From Opitutaceae bacterium (GTDB lineage: Bacteria; Verrucomicrobiota; Verrucomicrobiia; Opitutales; Opitutaceae), in contig JAIXQE010000157.1 in assembly GCA_027485815.1 (NCBI GenBank), forward strand, positions 1-45,878: a DNA stretch of 45,878 nt, given 5' to 3'. A program made the translations under genes and the position numbers. This document shows positions 19,095-24,863 of the stretch, piece by piece (the first letter of the stretch is position 1; every line of letters starts with the position of its first letter). The notes under the pieces were generated by a model, which was given only the letters and a program-made list of their open reading frames with translations, was not told where the DNA came from and ran no database searches.

Positions 19095-19844
19095 TCAGGC
19101 GCGCACCACCCGCGTGCCCGCGATGAAGTCGTGCAGGCAGCGGCGGTCCTCGCGGAAGATCATCAGGTAGTTGGTCGTCACGAAGGCGAACCGCAGGAAG
19201 AACCCGACGATCGGCACCAGCTGCAGCATCCCCTGGATCGCCCCGGAGGGCAGCTCGCGCAGCAGCCACGCGCGCAGGAAACCGGGTGGTTCGTCGTGGT
19301 CGGCGCGGACCACGCGCACCCCCAGCAGGATCTTGCCCAGCGACTGGCCCCGGCTGGAGAGCAGAAAGATCTGGATGCCCAGCAGCGCGAGCTGCAGCGC
19401 GGCGAACAACGCCAGCGCCGGCATCAGGCGGGTGGTCTCCAGCCCCTCGAGGTTGAACTCGCCCTCGCGGGACGCCGCCACGATCGCCTGCAGCACCTTC
19501 ATCAGGTCGGGGCCCAGCACCACCAGCGCGGGCACCGCGGCCAGGAGCTCAAGGAACCCGTCGGCGCAGCGCGCCAGCAGGCGGGACCACGGGGACGCGA
19601 GCGTCAGCGGCTGGGCCTCGGGCGCCTCGAACCCCGCCTCGCCGGCCTCCTGGACCGGACGCGCCGGCGCCACCGCCTCCACCCCGCCGAACTCCACGAA
19701 ATCCCCGAGCCGCCGCCACTCCTCGGTCCCCGCGCGCTTGGCGCGGGTGTCGACGTTGGCCCGGCCCCCGTCGATCCAGCCGCGGACCTGGCTGGCCGTC
19801 GCCGGACCGTACTCCTTGCCGTCGCCGCCGATGATGATGAACAT
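19095..19844 (-). CDS. GYF_2-domain plus RDD-family membrane protein
   Basis: A 249-residue protein with two modules. Residues ~1-55 are a GYF_2 domain (MFIIIGGDGKEYGPATASQ, VRGWIDGGRANVDTRAKRAG, EEWRRLGDF). Residues ~90-245 are an RDD domain with three to four membrane segments (FLELLAAVPALVVLGPDLM, ALALFAALQLALLGIQIFLL, LVPIVGFFLRFAFVTTNYL). The family Arg/Asp signature appears as SRGQSLGKILLGVRVVRADH, and the end is FREDRRCLHDFIAGTRVVRA. RDD proteins are integral membrane proteins, a few shown to act as Na+(Li+)/H+ antiporters; the role of the GYF_2 fusion is unknown. The TTG at 19856 is also in frame, but those bases form the -10 of the likely promoter, so the ATG at 19844 is preferred. 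Confidence 0.88.
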   Translation of the reverse strand: MFIIIGGDGKEYGPATASQVRGWIDGGRANVDTRAKRAGTEEWRRLGDFVEFGGVEAVAPARPVQEAGEAGFEAPEAQPLTLASPWSRLLARCADGFLELLAAVPALVVLGPDLMKVLQAIVAASREGEFNLEGLETTRLMPALALFAALQLALLGIQIFLLSSRGQSLGKILLGVRVVRADHDEPPGFLRAWLLRELPSGAIQGMLQLVPIVGFFLRFAFVTTNYLMIFREDRRCLHDFIAGTRVVRA

Positions 19845-19850
19845 CCCGTC

Positions 19851-19879
19851 AGGCAAGCCCCCGCCTCCGGCGGCGTCAA
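19851..19879 (-). promoter_or_regulatory. Putative promoter of the RDD gene
   Basis: Minus strand TTGACG (19879-19874), 17 nt, TTGCCT (19856-19851), then 6 nt to the ATG at 19844. With a usual 6-7 nt distance from -10 to the start site, the transcript would begin at the ATG itself. Confidence 0.5.
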
Positions 19880-19881
19880 CG

Positions 19882-20199
19882 TCAGGCCGCGCCCGGCAGC
19901 CGCACCCGCCGGGCGGCCGGATCCGGGTGGGGGCGGAAGAACAGGGCGGTGTGGCCCACGGCGCCCACGCACACGCAGCGGCCCTCGTCCGCGATCCGCG
20001 CCCCCAGCGCCGCCCGCTCCTCGCGGTCGGCGCCGACGAAGCGCAGCTTCACCAGCTCATGGGCGCGCAGCAGCCGCTGCAGTTCCTGGAGGAAGGCGGG
20101 GGTGACCCCAGCCTTGCCCACGCGGACGTGGTCGGCGAGGGCCTGGCCGAGGCCGCGCAGGTGGGAACGCTGGGCGCCGGTGAGCGCGAGTTCGTACAT
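19882..20199 (-). CDS. yhbY: YhbY-type CRM-domain RNA-binding protein
   Basis: A 105-residue CRM (CRS1-YhbY) domain protein. The family pattern is visible: LTGAQRSHLRGLGQALADHV at the start, VRVGKAGVTPAFLQELQRLL with the conserved GKAGVTP in the middle, LVKLRFVG, and CVCVGAVGHTALFFRP at the end, where the usual G-x-x-x-x-L-Y-R is changed to GHTALFFR. E. coli YhbY associates with pre-50S ribosomal subunits. The size matches the family (~97-110 residues). The gene is monocistronic, with its own promoter-like element (20206-20234), and sits back to back with the CPBP/ProA frame. Confidence 0.92.
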   Translation of the reverse strand: MYELALTGAQRSHLRGLGQALADHVRVGKAGVTPAFLQELQRLLRAHELVKLRFVGADREERAALGARIADEGRCVCVGAVGHTALFFRPHPDPAARRVRLPGAA

Positions 20200-20205
20200 G
20201 CCGCG

Positions 20206-20234
20206 ACCGTGACGCGTGCCCGGGCCGCTGCCAA
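20206..20234 (-). promoter_or_regulatory. Putative promoter of yhbY
   Basis: Minus strand TTGGCA (20234-20229), 17 nt, CACGGT (20211-20206), then 6 nt to the ATG at 20199. It has the same geometry as the promoters of the RDD and methyltransferase genes. Confidence 0.45.
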
Positions 20235-20285
20235 GCCCCGCGATTTCGCCTGACGCCCCCAGCCCGACCTGCGCGAAATGCACCC

Positions 20286-22520
20286 GTGCCGCGACCCGTC
20301 TCCGCCCCCCGCCACTTCACCCTCCGCTTCGCCCTCGCCCTGACCGCCGCCGCGGTCTTCGGCGAGGTGGCGGCCGCCTGGGTGCTCGAGCGAGCCTACC
20401 TCGCCGGCAGCCTCACCGGCTGGTACGCGTGGGCGGGCGACCAGCCCGACGTCGACGCGCTCCTGCTGGTGTTCGCCAAGCTGCTCGCCACCGCCCTGGT
20501 GGCGGGCTGGGCCTTCTCCCGCGGCGGCGAACGCTGGTCCGCCGCCGGCACGCTCCGGTTCTCACCCGCCAGGCTCGCCTGGACGCTGTTCCCCTTCCTC
20601 GCGGCGATGATCGTCGCCCTCTCGGAAATCGACAACCTGATGCGCGCGGCCCTGCCCGCGGGAACGCTCGAGCGCCTCGATTTCGCGCCGGACCTCGGGG
20701 AACTCGTCGAGACCGTGTGGCTGGGCCCGCTCCTCGCGGTGGTCGTCGCGCCCCTGACCGAGGAACTCGTCTTCCGCGGCCTGATCCTCCGCGGCCTGCT
20801 CGGCCGCTGGCGCCCGCTGGCCGCCATCCTGTTCTCCGCGGGGCTGTTCGCGCTGGTGCACTTCAACCCCGCCCAGGCCCCGGTCGCCCTCCTGCTGGGC
20901 CTGCTCACCGGCTGGCTCTACGCGCGGACGCGCTCGCTCGGGCTTTGCATCCTGGCCCACGCGCTCAACAACGCGGCCAGCTACCTGACGTGGTTCCCCT
21001 TCGAGGTCACGGGCTTCAACGCGGTCACCGAGGCGGAAGGCCCGGTCTTCCACCCCTGGTGGTTCAACGGCCTGGGCCTCGCCCTGCTCGCCCTCGGGAT
21101 CTGGGGCGTCCGCCGGCTCACGCCCCCGGGGTCCTCCTGGCGGCTGCCCCCGCCCGCTCCGCCCCCCCTGCTGCAGCCGCCGGTCCTTGCCCCCGCCGCA
21201 CTTGGCGGTTGTCAGCCTCCCGCCGGCCCCAACGATGCCACGCGGATGGCCTCGGACCTCGCCCAACTCGTCACCACGCTCGCCCGCCGCGCCCGCGCGG
21301 CCTCGCTCGTCCTCGCCAACGTCCCCCGTGAGCGCAAGGACGCCGCGCTGCTCCGGCTCGCCGCCCTGCTCGAGGCCGCCGGCCCCGAACTGCTCGCGGC
21401 CAACGCCCGCGACCTCGCCTCTCCCGAGGCCGCCGCCCTCCCCGCCGCCACCCGCGACCGGCTCACGCTCAACCCGGACCGCCTGCGCCACCTCGCGGAG
21501 TCCGTGCGTCAAGTCGCCGCCCTCCCCGACCCGGTCGGCGAAATCCTCGAGGAAACGACGCGCCCCAACGGCCTCCACCTGCGCAAGGTGCGCGTGCCGA
21601 TCGGCGTCCTCGCCATCATCTACGAGGCGCGGCCGAACGTGACCATCGATTGCGCCGTGCTCTGCCTCAAGAGCGGCAACGCCGCCATCCTCCGCGGGGG
21701 CAAGGAGGCCTTCCACACCAACGTCGCCCTCGCCGAGCTGGTGCGCCAGGCCCTGATCGCCACCGGCCTCCCCGCGGACGCGGTGCAACTCGTGCCCACC
21801 ACCGACCGCGGCGCGCTCACCACGCTGCTCGGGCTCGACACCCTCATCCACTGCGTGATCCCGCGCGGCGGCGAAGGGCTGATCCGGTTCGTCACCGAGC
21901 ACAGCACGATCCCGGTGATCAAGCATTACACCGGCGTCTGCTGCGTCTACCTCGACCGCGCCGCCGACGCGGCGATGGCCGCGGCGGTCACGACCAACGC
22001 CAAGGTCTCGCGGCCCAGCGCCTGCAACGCCGCGGAGCAGCTCCTCGTGCACCGCGAGGCCGCCGCCACCCTGCTCCCGGTCGTGGGCCGCGCGCTCGCC
22101 GACCGCGGGGTCCGCCTGCGGTGCGACCCCGAGTCCGCCGCGCTCCTCACCGCCGCCGGGATCCCCGCCGAACCGGCCGCGGCGGGTGACTTCACCGCGG
22201 AGTTCCTCGACCTCGTGCTGGCCGTGCGGATCGTCGGCTCCCTCGACGAGGCCATCGCCACCATCAACCGCGACGGGTCCGCCCACAGCGACGCGATCGT
22301 CACCGCGGACGAGCCCGCCGCCCGGCGTTTCCTCGCGGAGGTCGACAGTGCCACGGTCTACTGGAACGCCAGCACGCGCTTCACCGACGGCTTCGAATTC
22401 GGTTACGGGGCGGAGATCGGGATCAGCACGGACCGCCTGCACGCGCGCGGCCCCATGGGGCTGCGGGAGCTCTGCAGCCACAAGTTCCTGATCGAGGGCA
22501 CGGGCCAGGTCCGCGGCTGA
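20286..22520 (+). CDS. Joined frame: CPBP intramembrane protease followed by glutamate-5-semialdehyde dehydrogenase
   Basis: One uninterrupted 744-codon frame holds two unrelated proteins. Residues ~1-283 are a CPBP (Abi/CAAX-type) membrane protease with several hydrophobic segments and the glutamate motif EELVFRGLILRG (Glu159/160), FALVHFNP and HALNNAASYL. Residues ~284-320 are a Pro/Ala-rich linker (PPPAPPPLLQPPVLAP). Residues 321-744 are a complete ProA. No stop codon separates them. CPBP proteins are normally 220-300 residues and ProA ~420, so both are full length. A good promoter (21209-21237) and an ATG (21246) lie inside the linker, so ProA may also, or only, be made separately. The frame begins at GTG 20286, preceded by a weak CTGACG-17-GCGAAA. 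Whether a true fusion protein exists, or a stop was lost through mutation or assembly error, cannot be decided from this sequence. Confidence 0.7.
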   Translation: MPRPVSAPRHFTLRFALALTAAAVFGEVAAAWVLERAYLAGSLTGWYAWAGDQPDVDALLLVFAKLLATALVAGWAFSRGGERWSAAGTLRFSPARLAWTLFPFLAAMIVALSEIDNLMRAALPAGTLERLDFAPDLGELVETVWLGPLLAVVVAPLTEELVFRGLILRGLLGRWRPLAAILFSAGLFALVHFNPAQAPVALLLGLLTGWLYARTRSLGLCILAHALNNAASYLTWFPFEVTGFNAVTEAEGPVFHPWWFNGLGLALLALGIWGVRRLTPPGSSWRLPPPAPPPLLQPPVLAPAALGGCQPPAGPNDATRMASDLAQLVTTLARRARAASLVLANVPRERKDAALLRLAALLEAAGPELLAANARDLASPEAAALPAATRDRLTLNPDRLRHLAESVRQVAALPDPVGEILEETTRPNGLHLRKVRVPIGVLAIIYEARPNVTIDCAVLCLKSGNAAILRGGKEAFHTNVALAELVRQALIATGLPADAVQLVPTTDRGALTTLLGLDTLIHCVIPRGGEGLIRFVTEHSTIPVIKHYTGVCCVYLDRAADAAMAAAVTTNAKVSRPSACNAAEQLLVHREAAATLLPVVGRALADRGVRLRCDPESAALLTAAGIPAEPAAAGDFTAEFLDLVLAVRIVGSLDEAIATINRDGSAHSDAIVTADEPAARRFLAEVDSATVYWNASTRFTDGFEFGYGAEIGISTDRLHARGPMGLRELCSHKFLIEGTGQVRG
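21209..21237 (+). promoter_or_regulatory. Internal promoter candidate for proA
   Basis: TTGTCA (21209-21214), 17 nt, ACGATG (21232-21237), then 8 nt to the in-frame ATG at 21246. It lies inside the linker of the joined CPBP-ProA frame and matches the spacing seen upstream of clpP and other genes. Confidence 0.55.
21246..22520 (+). CDS. proA: Glutamate-5-semialdehyde dehydrogenase (separate product from internal start)
   Basis: A 424-residue ProA, the NADPH-dependent gamma-glutamyl phosphate reductase of proline synthesis. The start MASDLAQLVTTLARRARAAS fits the family. Strong signatures are VPIGVLAIIYEARPNVT, CLKSGNAAILRGGKEA, VIPRGGEGLIRFV, and the catalytic Cys260 in KVSRPSACNAAEQLLVH. The end, STRFTDGFEFGYGAEIGIST and GPMGLRELCSHKF, is also typical. 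The length equals that of free-standing ProA. The upstream promoter-like pair supports independent transcription even though the CPBP frame reads into it. ProB is not in the window. An 8-bp hairpin follows immediately at the stop. Confidence 0.85.
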   Translation: MASDLAQLVTTLARRARAASLVLANVPRERKDAALLRLAALLEAAGPELLAANARDLASPEAAALPAATRDRLTLNPDRLRHLAESVRQVAALPDPVGEILEETTRPNGLHLRKVRVPIGVLAIIYEARPNVTIDCAVLCLKSGNAAILRGGKEAFHTNVALAELVRQALIATGLPADAVQLVPTTDRGALTTLLGLDTLIHCVIPRGGEGLIRFVTEHSTIPVIKHYTGVCCVYLDRAADAAMAAAVTTNAKVSRPSACNAAEQLLVHREAAATLLPVVGRALADRGVRLRCDPESAALLTAAGIPAEPAAAGDFTAEFLDLVLAVRIVGSLDEAIATINRDGSAHSDAIVTADEPAARRFLAEVDSATVYWNASTRFTDGFEFGYGAEIGISTDRLHARGPMGLRELCSHKFLIEGTGQVRG

Positions 22521-22540: not shown

Positions 22541-22568
22541 GCCGGCGGGGATGGTTTCGCTCTCCGCG

Positions 22569-24140
22569 ATGCCCGCCCGCCCCCTGCTCCCCGGCGCCGT
22601 CCTCGTCGCGCTCCTGTCGCTCGCCAGCCTGCCGCCCGCGGCCGGCCAGGTGACGCCCCCCGCTACCCTGACCGCCCCGGCGGCGCCCGTCCCGTCGCCC
22701 GCGCCGGCCCCCGCCGCGGCTTCCGGGATCGAGGCCTCGGTGGTCAAGGTGTTCGCCACCGCGCGGTACCCGGATCCCTACCGCCCGTGGACCAAGCAGG
22801 CCCCGCGCGAGGGCACCGGCACCGGCGTCATCATCGAGGGCCGTCGCATCCTGACGAACGCCCACGTCGTCCTCTACGCGAGCCAGGTGCAGGTCCAGGC
22901 CAACCAGTCCGGCGACAAGGTCTCGGCCACCGTCGAGGCCATCGCGCCGGGGATCGACCTCGCCGTGCTCCGGCTGGAGGACGAGACGTTCTTCGCCCAG
23001 CGCCCCGCCCTGCCCCGCGCCGCCCGCCTGCCCGGGGTCAAGGACCCGGTGATGGTCTACGGCTTCCCCACCGGCGGCACCAACCTCTCGATCACCAAGG
23101 GGATCGTCTCCCGCATCGAGTTCACGCTCTACAACTACCCGGTCTCCGGCCTGCGGATCCAGATCGACGCCGCCATCAACCCGGGCAACAGCGGCGGCCC
23201 GGCCGTCGTCGACGACCGGATGATCGGCCTCGCCTTCAGCCGCCTCGGCGGCGGCGACAACATCGGGTACATCATCCCCGCCGAGGAGATCGACCTGTTC
23301 CTCGCCGACGTCGCCGACGGCCGCTACGACGGCAAGCCCGCCCTCTTCGATCCGCTCCAGACCTTCGAGAACCCCGCCCTGCGCACGCACCTCAAGGTCG
23401 GCCGCGAGGTGGAGGGCGTGATTGTCACCGGCACCGACAGCGCCGACGAGGCCTACCCGCTGCGCGCGTGGGACGTCCTCACCCACATCGCCGGCACGCC
23501 GATCGACAACGAGGGCATGGTGCGGCGGGGCGATCTCCGCGTGCGCCTCCATTACCTGCTCCAGTCCCAGGCGAAGGCCGGCCGCATCGCGCTCACCGTC
23601 GTGCGCGACCAGACGCCGCGCGTGATCGAGGTGCCGGTGCCGCCCCAGCGACCGCTGGTGATGCCGGACCTGGTCGGCAATTACCCCTCGTATTTCATCT
23701 ACGGACCCGTGGTCTTCTCGGCGGCCACGCAGGCCTTCCTCGCGGGCCTGAACAACGTCGCGGCGCAGCTCTCCGCCCAGGCGAGCCCGCTCGCGCACCG
23801 GCGCGCCGACCGCCCGGCCTTCGCGGGCGAGGAGATCGTCGTCGTGTCCTCCCCGTTCTTCCCCCACCGGCTGGTCAAGGGCTACTCCCCCGCCCAGGGG
23901 CGCGTGGTGGAGTCGGTCAACGGCCGCCGCGTCCGCAACCTCGCCCACCTGGTGGAGTTGCTCCGCGACGCGCGCGAGGACCTCATCGTGCTCGATTTCG
24001 CCGGCCGAAAGCTCGAGACGGTCGTCCTGCCCCGCGCCGAGACCGCCGCCGCCACCGAGGAGATCCTCAACGACAACGGCATCCGGGCCCAGGGCTCGCC
24101 CGACGTCCTCGCCGTCTGGCAGGCGCCCCGCGCCCCCTGA
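22569..24140 (+). CDS. Deg/HtrA-type trypsin-like serine protease with PDZ region
   Basis: A 523-residue exported serine protease. It has a signal peptide (MPARPLLPGAVLVALLSLA, cleavage near AAGQ) and then a trypsin-like domain. His99 is in ILTNAHVVLYASQ, Asp130 in GIDLAVLRLED, and Ser208 in INPGNSGGPAVVDD, completing the triad. A PDZ-like domain follows (AYPLRAWDVLTHIAGTPIDN), then a long C-terminal region (SVNGRRVRNLAHLVELLRDA looks like a second PDZ-like part). The segment NYPVSGLRIQIDAAINPGNS recalls the Deg9/Deg10-type branch rather than classical DegP. Such proteases handle misfolded periplasmic proteins. An ATG at 22551 is possible, but the one at 22569 gives the tighter signal peptide and sits 7 nt after a TTCGCT hexamer. 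The gene lies 72 bp before clpP. Confidence 0.9.
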   Translation: MPARPLLPGAVLVALLSLASLPPAAGQVTPPATLTAPAAPVPSPAPAPAAASGIEASVVKVFATARYPDPYRPWTKQAPREGTGTGVIIEGRRILTNAHVVLYASQVQVQANQSGDKVSATVEAIAPGIDLAVLRLEDETFFAQRPALPRAARLPGVKDPVMVYGFPTGGTNLSITKGIVSRIEFTLYNYPVSGLRIQIDAAINPGNSGGPAVVDDRMIGLAFSRLGGGDNIGYIIPAEEIDLFLADVADGRYDGKPALFDPLQTFENPALRTHLKVGREVEGVIVTGTDSADEAYPLRAWDVLTHIAGTPIDNEGMVRRGDLRVRLHYLLQSQAKAGRIALTVVRDQTPRVIEVPVPPQRPLVMPDLVGNYPSYFIYGPVVFSAATQAFLAGLNNVAAQLSAQASPLAHRRADRPAFAGEEIVVVSSPFFPHRLVKGYSPAQGRVVESVNGRRVRNLAHLVELLRDAREDLIVLDFAGRKLETVVLPRAETAAATEEILNDNGIRAQGSPDVLAVWQAPRAP

Positions 24141-24212: not shown

Positions 24213-24863
24213 ATGCATTTCGACTCCCGCCCGCTCGCCCCCGCCTCCCTGCCGCCCCGCGCCGACGACGAGGATGAGGACGACGAGGAGTCCGCCGCCG
24301 CGCGCAAGGGGGCAGCGCCCGTCGCGCTGCTGATCCAGCGGAAGTTCCTCGAGCAGCGGAAGATCTTCCTCTGGGGCGCCGTCACCGATGAGACCGCCAA
24401 GGACCTCACCGAGAAACTGCTCTACCTCGAGGCCAGCGCGCCCGGGAAGGACATCACGTTCTACATCAACACCCCGGGCGGCTCCATCACCGCCGGCATG
24501 GCGGTGTACGACACGATCCAGCTGATCACCTCGCCGGTCACGGTGGTGGTCACGGGGATGGCCGCCTCGATGGGCTCGATTTTGCTCAGCGCCGCGCCCA
24601 AGGGCCGCCGCCTGCTCTACCCGCACTCGCGCGTGCTGATCCACCAGCCCCTGATCTCCGGCCGGATGATCGGCCCCGCCAGCGACATCAACATCCAGGC
24701 GCAGGAGATGGAGAAGCTGCGCGCGGAGCTGAACCAGATCCTGGCGACCGCCTCGGGCCAGCCGCTGGAGCGGATCAACCGCGACACCGACCGCGACTTC
24801 TACCTGACCGCCCGCGAGGCCATCGAGTACGGGCTGGCCGACCGCATCGTCGACCGCGTCTGA
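24213..24863 (+). CDS. clpP: ATP-dependent Clp protease proteolytic subunit with acidic N-terminal extension
   Basis: A 216-residue ClpP, the barrel-shaped serine peptidase that degrades substrates unfolded by ClpX/ClpA. The catalytic triad is in place: Ser119 in TGMAASMGSILLSA, His144 in RVLIHQPLISG, Asp195 in RDTDRDFYLTA. TPGGSITAGMAVYDTIQ is the typical handle/active-site approach. The N-terminus differs from standard ClpP: about 30 residues including RADDEDEDDEE precede the core, which starts near ALLIQRKFLEQRKIFLWG. The lead sequence PMVIEQTSRGERAYDI-type of canonical ClpP is absent, so axial-loop contacts with ClpX may differ. No clpX is adjacent, which fits a second, non-canonical ClpP paralogue. 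It converges with the DUF1501 gene over a palindromic terminator. Confidence 0.93.
   Translation: MHFDSRPLAPASLPPRADDEDEDDEESAAARKGAAPVALLIQRKFLEQRKIFLWGAVTDETAKDLTEKLLYLEASAPGKDITFYINTPGGSITAGMAVYDTIQLITSPVTVVVTGMAASMGSILLSAAPKGRRLLYPHSRVLIHQPLISGRMIGPASDINIQAQEMEKLRAELNQILATASGQPLERINRDTDRDFYLTAREAIEYGLADRIVDRV

Follow-up and report, generated by a model that had tools for sequence, protein, structure and literature searches.

We analysed a window of 45,878 nt (contig JAIXQE010000157.1 of the Opitutaceae bacterium assembly GCA_027485815.1), in which one uninterrupted reading frame on the forward strand joins a CPBP-type intramembrane protease to ProA, glutamate-5-semialdehyde dehydrogenase. 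A sequence-only reading of this DNA had described a 744-codon open frame holding a CPBP protease with Glu159/160 and a complete ProA with Cys580, and the description proved accurate, as frame and residues were found again and Pfam and NCBIfam models matched the protein. The frame and its two halves are laid out as follows:

20286..22520, + strand: CPBP-ProA fusion gene, 744 codons, GTG start, TGA stop
20286..21119, + strand: CPBP/Rce1-like intramembrane protease half, residues 1-278, with eight predicted membrane helices (PF02517 and structure models)
20760..20777, + strand: EExxxR motif (E159, E160, R164) in predicted helix 4 (146-172), invariant in 33/33 aligned fusions
20859..20861, + strand: H192, invariant in 33/33 aligned fusions
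20958..20972, + strand: HxxxN motif (H225, N229) in predicted helix 7 (218-233), invariant in 33/33 aligned fusions
21246..22517, + strand: ProA (glutamate-5-semialdehyde dehydrogenase) half, residues 321-744 (family models and fold matches)
22023..22025, + strand: C580, which we take to be the catalytic Cys of ProA, invariant in the 33 aligned fusions

Relatives with a complete 5' end have ATG, GTG or TTG at the position matching the start at 20286. Upstream of this start, a block of the TTTTCGCCTGACGCC...CAAACCTGCG type (20244..20276, + strand) was recognised by eye; it has look-alikes in many fused loci, is absent or altered in several others, and is a possible promoter of the fusion. The Pfam family PF02517 (Rce1-like) matched residues 145-230 (8.6e-22; 77.7 bits against a cut-off of 22.4), and none of the named NCBIfam CPBP subfamily models was matched above its cut-off by the fusion protein. 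Judged from these residues and matches, the first half is a CPBP/Rce1-type protein with intact catalytic residues and a putative proteolytic activity. The ProA models NF001221 (residues 326-743; 2.8e-166; 553.4 bits against 289) and TIGR00407 (residues 336-733; 9.2e-140; 465.9 bits against 317.45) cover the second half, and C580 aligns to a Cys of PDB 4ghk; this half is a full-length ProA with its catalytic residues intact and predicted enzyme activity. The 33-fusion alignment behind these statements of invariance omits one fused locus, L064. In the window genome, the fused gene is the sole ProA among the matches listed, and proB stands by itself on a different contig (G000:C204). In twelve fused loci (L012, L013, L018 and L065-L073) the ProA half carries in-frame Ser/Pro/Thr-rich insertions at one site (about alignment columns 696-753), some of them with a STLNSQLST-like stretch, and these look repeat-derived.

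Each half has known counterparts. CPBP/Rce1-like glutamic intramembrane proteases (PF02517, MmRce1 4cad, myxosortase) share with the protease half the EExxxR motif of helix 4, the HxxxN motif of helix 7 and eight predicted helices, but the present protein has a biosynthetic enzyme attached at its C-terminal side; according to the available text on myxosortase (PMC11980579), the two motifs sit inside membrane helices in CPBP proteases. Compared with ordinary ProA, or gamma-glutamyl phosphate reductase (GPR; TIGR00407, NF001221; PDB 4ghk, 1o20, 8zok), the second half is alike in its full-length domain, C580 and GPR fold, while in the fusion its N-terminus is extended by a proline-rich linker and a membrane protease of eight helices. 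The bifunctional ProB-ProA enzyme P5CS (TIGR01092; PMC11061531, available text) likewise has ProA as the C-terminal half of a natural fusion; its N-terminal partner is glutamate 5-kinase, whereas here it is a membrane protease. A P5CS-like fusion was rejected, as TIGR01092 scored 344.7 bits against a cut-off of 796.75, over the ProA part only, and proB is separate. The available text of the same article, on the origin of P5CS, holds no mention of CAAX or Verrucomicrobi-. ABC permease-CPBP fusions (NF041647) also hold a CPBP domain within a larger natural fusion, but there it is C-terminal and its partner is a permease, and the window protein scored 74.8 bits against a cut-off of 435. Within literature coverage that leaves out most subscription journals, we found no paper with both CPBP and glutamate-5-semialdehyde dehydrogenase, and none linking the latter with Opitut- and membrane.

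The model of the full-length protein shows eight long helices within residues 13-278, followed by a folded ProA (mean pLDDT 77, pTM 0.43), and the protease half modelled alone reached a pTM of 0.84. When the latter model was compared with the PDB, MmRce1 (4cad_F) came first, with a probability of 0.99, a weak E-value of 0.082 and a TM-score of 0.45-0.50, and SpdC (6u0o) second, its E-value likewise weak. The best 50 Foldseek matches of the full model were all of the ALDH type, GPR first, and the ProA half matches GPR structures. Counted per alternating segment, Lys/Arg residues number 2, 2, 2, 1 and 1 on one side of the membrane and 0, 1, 0 and 0 on the other; since the number of helices is even and the charges follow the positive-inside pattern, both protein ends, including ProA, are predicted to lie in the cytosol, the compartment in which ProA has to work. 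A real membrane-tethered ProA, one of the explanations put forward from the sequence alone, gains support from the conservation of the fusion described below, from the eight predicted helices and from the positive-inside pattern.

We then determined how widespread the fusion is, searching with the full protein against 57 relatives and 27 genomes of genus g1, and with the protease part against 252 genomes of the family (E <= 1e-20). A joined CPBP-ProA frame was found in 34 of the 252 family genomes, spread over five genera. Compilation of the matches revealed that (i) 17 of the 27 g1 genomes (window genome included), 9 of g47, 1 each of g39 and g52, and 6 of 8 of g32 carry the fused gene, (ii) all four of the nearest relatives (89-91% identity) have the fused gene, so that the stop between the genes for which the sequence-only reading had proposed to look in close relatives is absent from them, (iii) of the other ten g1 genomes, eight harbor an unfused ProA and show no CPBP match at E <= 1e-20, while two have no ProA match among the matches listed, and (iv) 13 further family genomes have a CPBP match unfused to ProA, which lies directly upstream of proA in L092 and about 3 kb away from it in L090, the remaining 11 loci showing no ProA within the stretch fetched. 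Not all fused loci are complete: contigs end within L006 and L017, the ProA of L064 contains a stop close to the end of a contig, and in two of the six g32 fusions (L075 and L079) the N-terminal part of CPBP is apparently out of frame or missing. The assembly may be at fault in L075 and L079, or the protease half may be decaying; the two loci indicate that an intact protease is not always kept.

Among named records, ProA stands in the flank of 26 of 80 CPBP loci, in all 26 cases in the CPBP frame; the other 54 loci have no ProA in up to 3 kb on either side. The 26 are labelled Opitutaceae, Opitutae, Opitutia, Opitutus sp., Verrucomicrobia or Verrucomicrobiota, and the host group is known mostly from lakes and groundwater. 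No ProA match reached through the protease part in 20 genomes of other families, and 384 genomes of the class were searched at E <= 1e-165, a threshold too strict for excluding weaker cases. Within the family, six further genomes (G022, G112, G117, G193, G233 and G244) have long frames upstream of ProA without a CPBP match at E <= 1e-20. The unfused ProA of L129 (G242) and L130 (G244) has an Ala/Pro/Thr-rich N-terminal extension and lacks the Met of the usual start, and the frame upstream of it is open for 688 codons in L130. Sequencing error and stop-codon loss had been among the explanations offered for the joined frame, which might thus reflect faulty sequencing or assembly, or loss of a stop in the window genome alone. 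Each of the 26 named fused records is a metagenome-assembled genome, which is in keeping with an error, but the same open junction recurs in 33 other genomes, the 34 fused loci come from five genera, the linker is constrained (see below) and every one of the 26 ProA-bearing named loci is in frame. Both an error and a stop loss private to the window genome are ruled out by these data, and we give the whole explanation a next to negligible probability.

The linker between the two halves falls into two parts that evolve differently:

21120..21197, + strand: proline-rich stretch of the linker (residues 279-304), with a pN/pS of 0.33 over the corresponding region
21198..21245, + strand: last 16 linker codons, pS 0.164, pN/pS 0.95, third positions frozen at A/T
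21209..21214, + strand: -35-like TTGTCA of the candidate embedded proA promoter, with T(-37), T(-36) and G(-35) in 28, 27 and 28 of the 28 fused loci outside g32
21231..21236, + strand: -10-like AACGAT (xAxxxT) of the same element, after a 16-nt spacer, with A(-14) and T(-10) in 28/28 loci outside g32
21246..21248, + strand: retained ProA start ATG (Met321), with Met at the ProA start in 34/34 fused loci

The comparison of the linker across relatives, which the sequence-only reading had suggested as a check, yielded not a single in-frame stop in the 40 codons preceding the ProA Met of the 34 fused loci (1360 codons). The two other frames of the same stretch contain 12 and 24 stops, in 9 and 16 loci, and among unfused proA loci 22 of 49 have an in-frame stop over the same 40-codon distance. 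Pooled over 26 close pairs, which are related and not independent, pN/pS was 0.17 for CPBP and 0.16 for ProA, against the 0.33 of the proline-rich linker. By these measures, the proline-rich linker evolves as protein. The proline-rich tail is no novelty of the fusion, as similar ones terminate several unfused CPBP relatives.

The end of the linker behaves otherwise. A promoter-like pair and an in-frame ATG had been reported inside the linker and are indeed there, TTGTCA at 21209-21214, AACGAT at 21231-21236 and the ATG at 21246 (in L075, the ProA-start Met stands four codons further upstream). In 19 nonredundant fused loci, the third codon positions are A/T at -43, -37 and -10 in 19/19, at -46 in 17 and at -34 in 15, against an A/T background of 12-14% at third positions in the flanking domains. 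The fall of pS together with the rise of pN/pS over the last 16 codons indicates that bases, and not residues, are held. A weight matrix built from the 19 loci scored on average 4.57 upstream of 49 unfused proA genes (out of about 206 in the family) as compared with 0.23 (sd 3.96) in shuffles that kept base composition only; 19 of the 49 regions exceeded the 95th percentile of the shuffles, and in 23 the -10 begins at -14 to -18. As the motif also precedes unfused proA, the linker-end element is most likely the promoter of proA and older than the fusion. Its -10 ends 10 nt before the ATG, from which we infer a leaderless or near-leaderless transcript. Two results count against a promoter. The motif was not enriched at 158 crudely placed starts of other genes, of which 10 scored above threshold where about 8 were expected, a weak test, the starts being guessed; and the six g32 fusions are without the promoter-like motif in its TTGxxx-N16-xAxxxT form. 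In several genera, unfused proA (L108:2058, L113:1997, L114:1997 and others) has short TTCCGTG-type repeats (TTCCGTGTCTTCCGTG) upstream, which overlap a -35-like GTGTCT.

Two other readings of the linker end were weighed against these data. ProA might occur solely within the long protein, the TTGTC stretch reflecting a conserved Cys of the linker, and most fused loci outside g32 do encode this Cys. However, L014 is without it and still has TTGGCG-N17-GAACCT, displaced by one base; the third positions are frozen where pN/pS is 0.95; and the motif also stands before unfused proA, where it is noncoding. A Cys motif acting at the protein level is disfavoured on these grounds, and the reading as a whole appears very improbable. 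Alternatively, the long protein could be a precursor, cut in the linker by its own protease half or by another protease so that ProA is released and two proteins exist at steady state. The linker is attached to a protease and is predicted to be disordered (pLDDT <50 at residues 290-318 of the model), as a precursor would have it, but nothing indicates a cut site, the linker end is not conserved as protein, and the promoter-like motif already offers a route to free ProA; we consider such processing improbable.

With regard to the history of the fusion, a single clade of the CPBP tree (SH-aLRT 100) unites all 28 fused CPBPs from g1, g39, g47 and g52, and a second one (SH-aLRT 92) unites the CPBPs of g32, whether fused or not. 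In this tree the row of L034 was read in the wrong frame and its position is meaningless; L034 is a second CPBP stretch (G020:C86:488-1012; 49% identity, residues 6-181) of a genome that has the fused gene as well, and may be a truncated copy or a contaminant. The ProA tree (82 rows, omitting the too short L064) needs at least nine changes between the fused and unfused states, and places g32 in a clade of its own. Holding together the 27 fused ProA rows outside g32 was rejected by the AU test (p 0.00066), whereas the grouping of the six fused g32 rows was not (p 0.50). Because the CPBP halves outside g32 form one clade and the ProA halves do not, the simplest reading is that the genes outside g32 fused once, long ago, and that the protease half was then lost repeatedly, with ProA persisting under its own promoter; the nine or more losses or gains also imply that the fusion is not indispensable. 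A second fusion, separate from the first, probably took place in g32. There, L092 has a CPBP gene that stops 46 nt before proA, with proA in another frame and TTGCGC-N17-GACGTT in the gap; alternatively, a single still older fusion may have been split again in L092. Stop-codon loss, also proposed from the sequence alone, fails as an event private to the window genome, given the 33 others, and is plausible as the old origin of the fusion, to which the arrangement in L092 points.

Taken together, we favor, at a probability of about 0.7, an old and genuine fusion whose gene would give rise to both a membrane-anchored CPBP-ProA and a free ProA from an internal promoter. The fusion itself is well supported by the sequence comparisons; the two products, one membrane-tied and one free, are what the conserved frame and the conserved promoter-like motif suggest. 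In the ancestor, a CPBP gene would have stood just upstream of proA, and loss of its stop would have carried the frame across the proA promoter and on into proA. A protein of about 80 kDa would be translated from GTG 20286, in which the eight-helix protease is followed by a cytosolic, proline-rich linker and by ProA, positioned at the membrane's inner face; its joined frame is conserved, and its translation and topology are predicted. The proA promoter, now codons and still constrained as DNA, would probably drive a near-leaderless proA mRNA from Met321, and the motif would, if active, supply a free ProA of about 45 kDa. Such a form would account for the survival of ProA through repeated losses of the protease half. 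Selection on the joined frame would maintain the tethered form, and the tether presumably places ProA at the membrane or ties the amount of ProA to the protease, this being the weakest step of the scheme. Of the sequence-only interpretation, then, the tethered ProA is supported and the error is ruled out, and the shared promoter-like element points in addition to a free ProA.

The chief competing explanation accepts translation of the fusion but gives the attached ProA no special role, loss of the stop having been tolerated because the internal promoter supplies free ProA, and inertia having done the rest. The internal promoter-like motif and Met are kept and the protease half was lost repeatedly, both of which fit this neutral course; moreover, stops are rare anyway in a GC-rich, proline-rich stretch, so that their absence is compatible with it. 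The contrast in stops between fused (0/34) and unfused (22/49) loci, the pN/pS of the proline-rich linker and the existence of two fused lineages argue the other way, and we consider neutrality unlikely. A more specific form of the two-product reading can be put forward only tentatively, at somewhat worse than even odds: one gene would maintain two pools of ProA, one tethered to an active intramembrane protease and one free, made from a promoter that doubles as linker; the tether would couple proline synthesis with the protease or with the state of the membrane, and this organization would have arisen at least twice in the family. Genes with an internal start that yield nested long and short products include those of CheA (long and short), IF2 (its several forms) and ClpB. 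One frame and a common C-terminus are shared by these and proposed here for CPBP-ProA, but the short form of the latter would come from a promoter that once belonged to a separate gene and that now serves as linker codons. If our reading is right, the locus shows two neighbouring genes becoming one, in stages that run from adjacent genes with a promoter between them (L092), through a joined frame whose promoter codons remain under constraint as DNA, to recurrent losses of the first half that, given the promoter, would do no harm. It would also provide a clean system for asking why a soluble biosynthetic enzyme sits at the membrane beside a protease.

The genes flanking the fusion in the window are a YhbY-type RNA-binding protein (19882-20283, - strand) and an RDD-family membrane protein (19095-19856, - strand) upstream, and a trypsin/PDZ protease (22551-24140, + strand) downstream, the latter followed by ClpP (24213-24863, + strand). 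The N-terminus of the RDD-family protein is GYF_2-like, with a score slightly short of the Pfam cut-off. Proline-rich peptides are what GYF-type domains bind, and the nearby fusion has a proline-rich linker. The order proA-protease-clpP recurs in L093, an unfused g1 genome, and in L098, a fused one.
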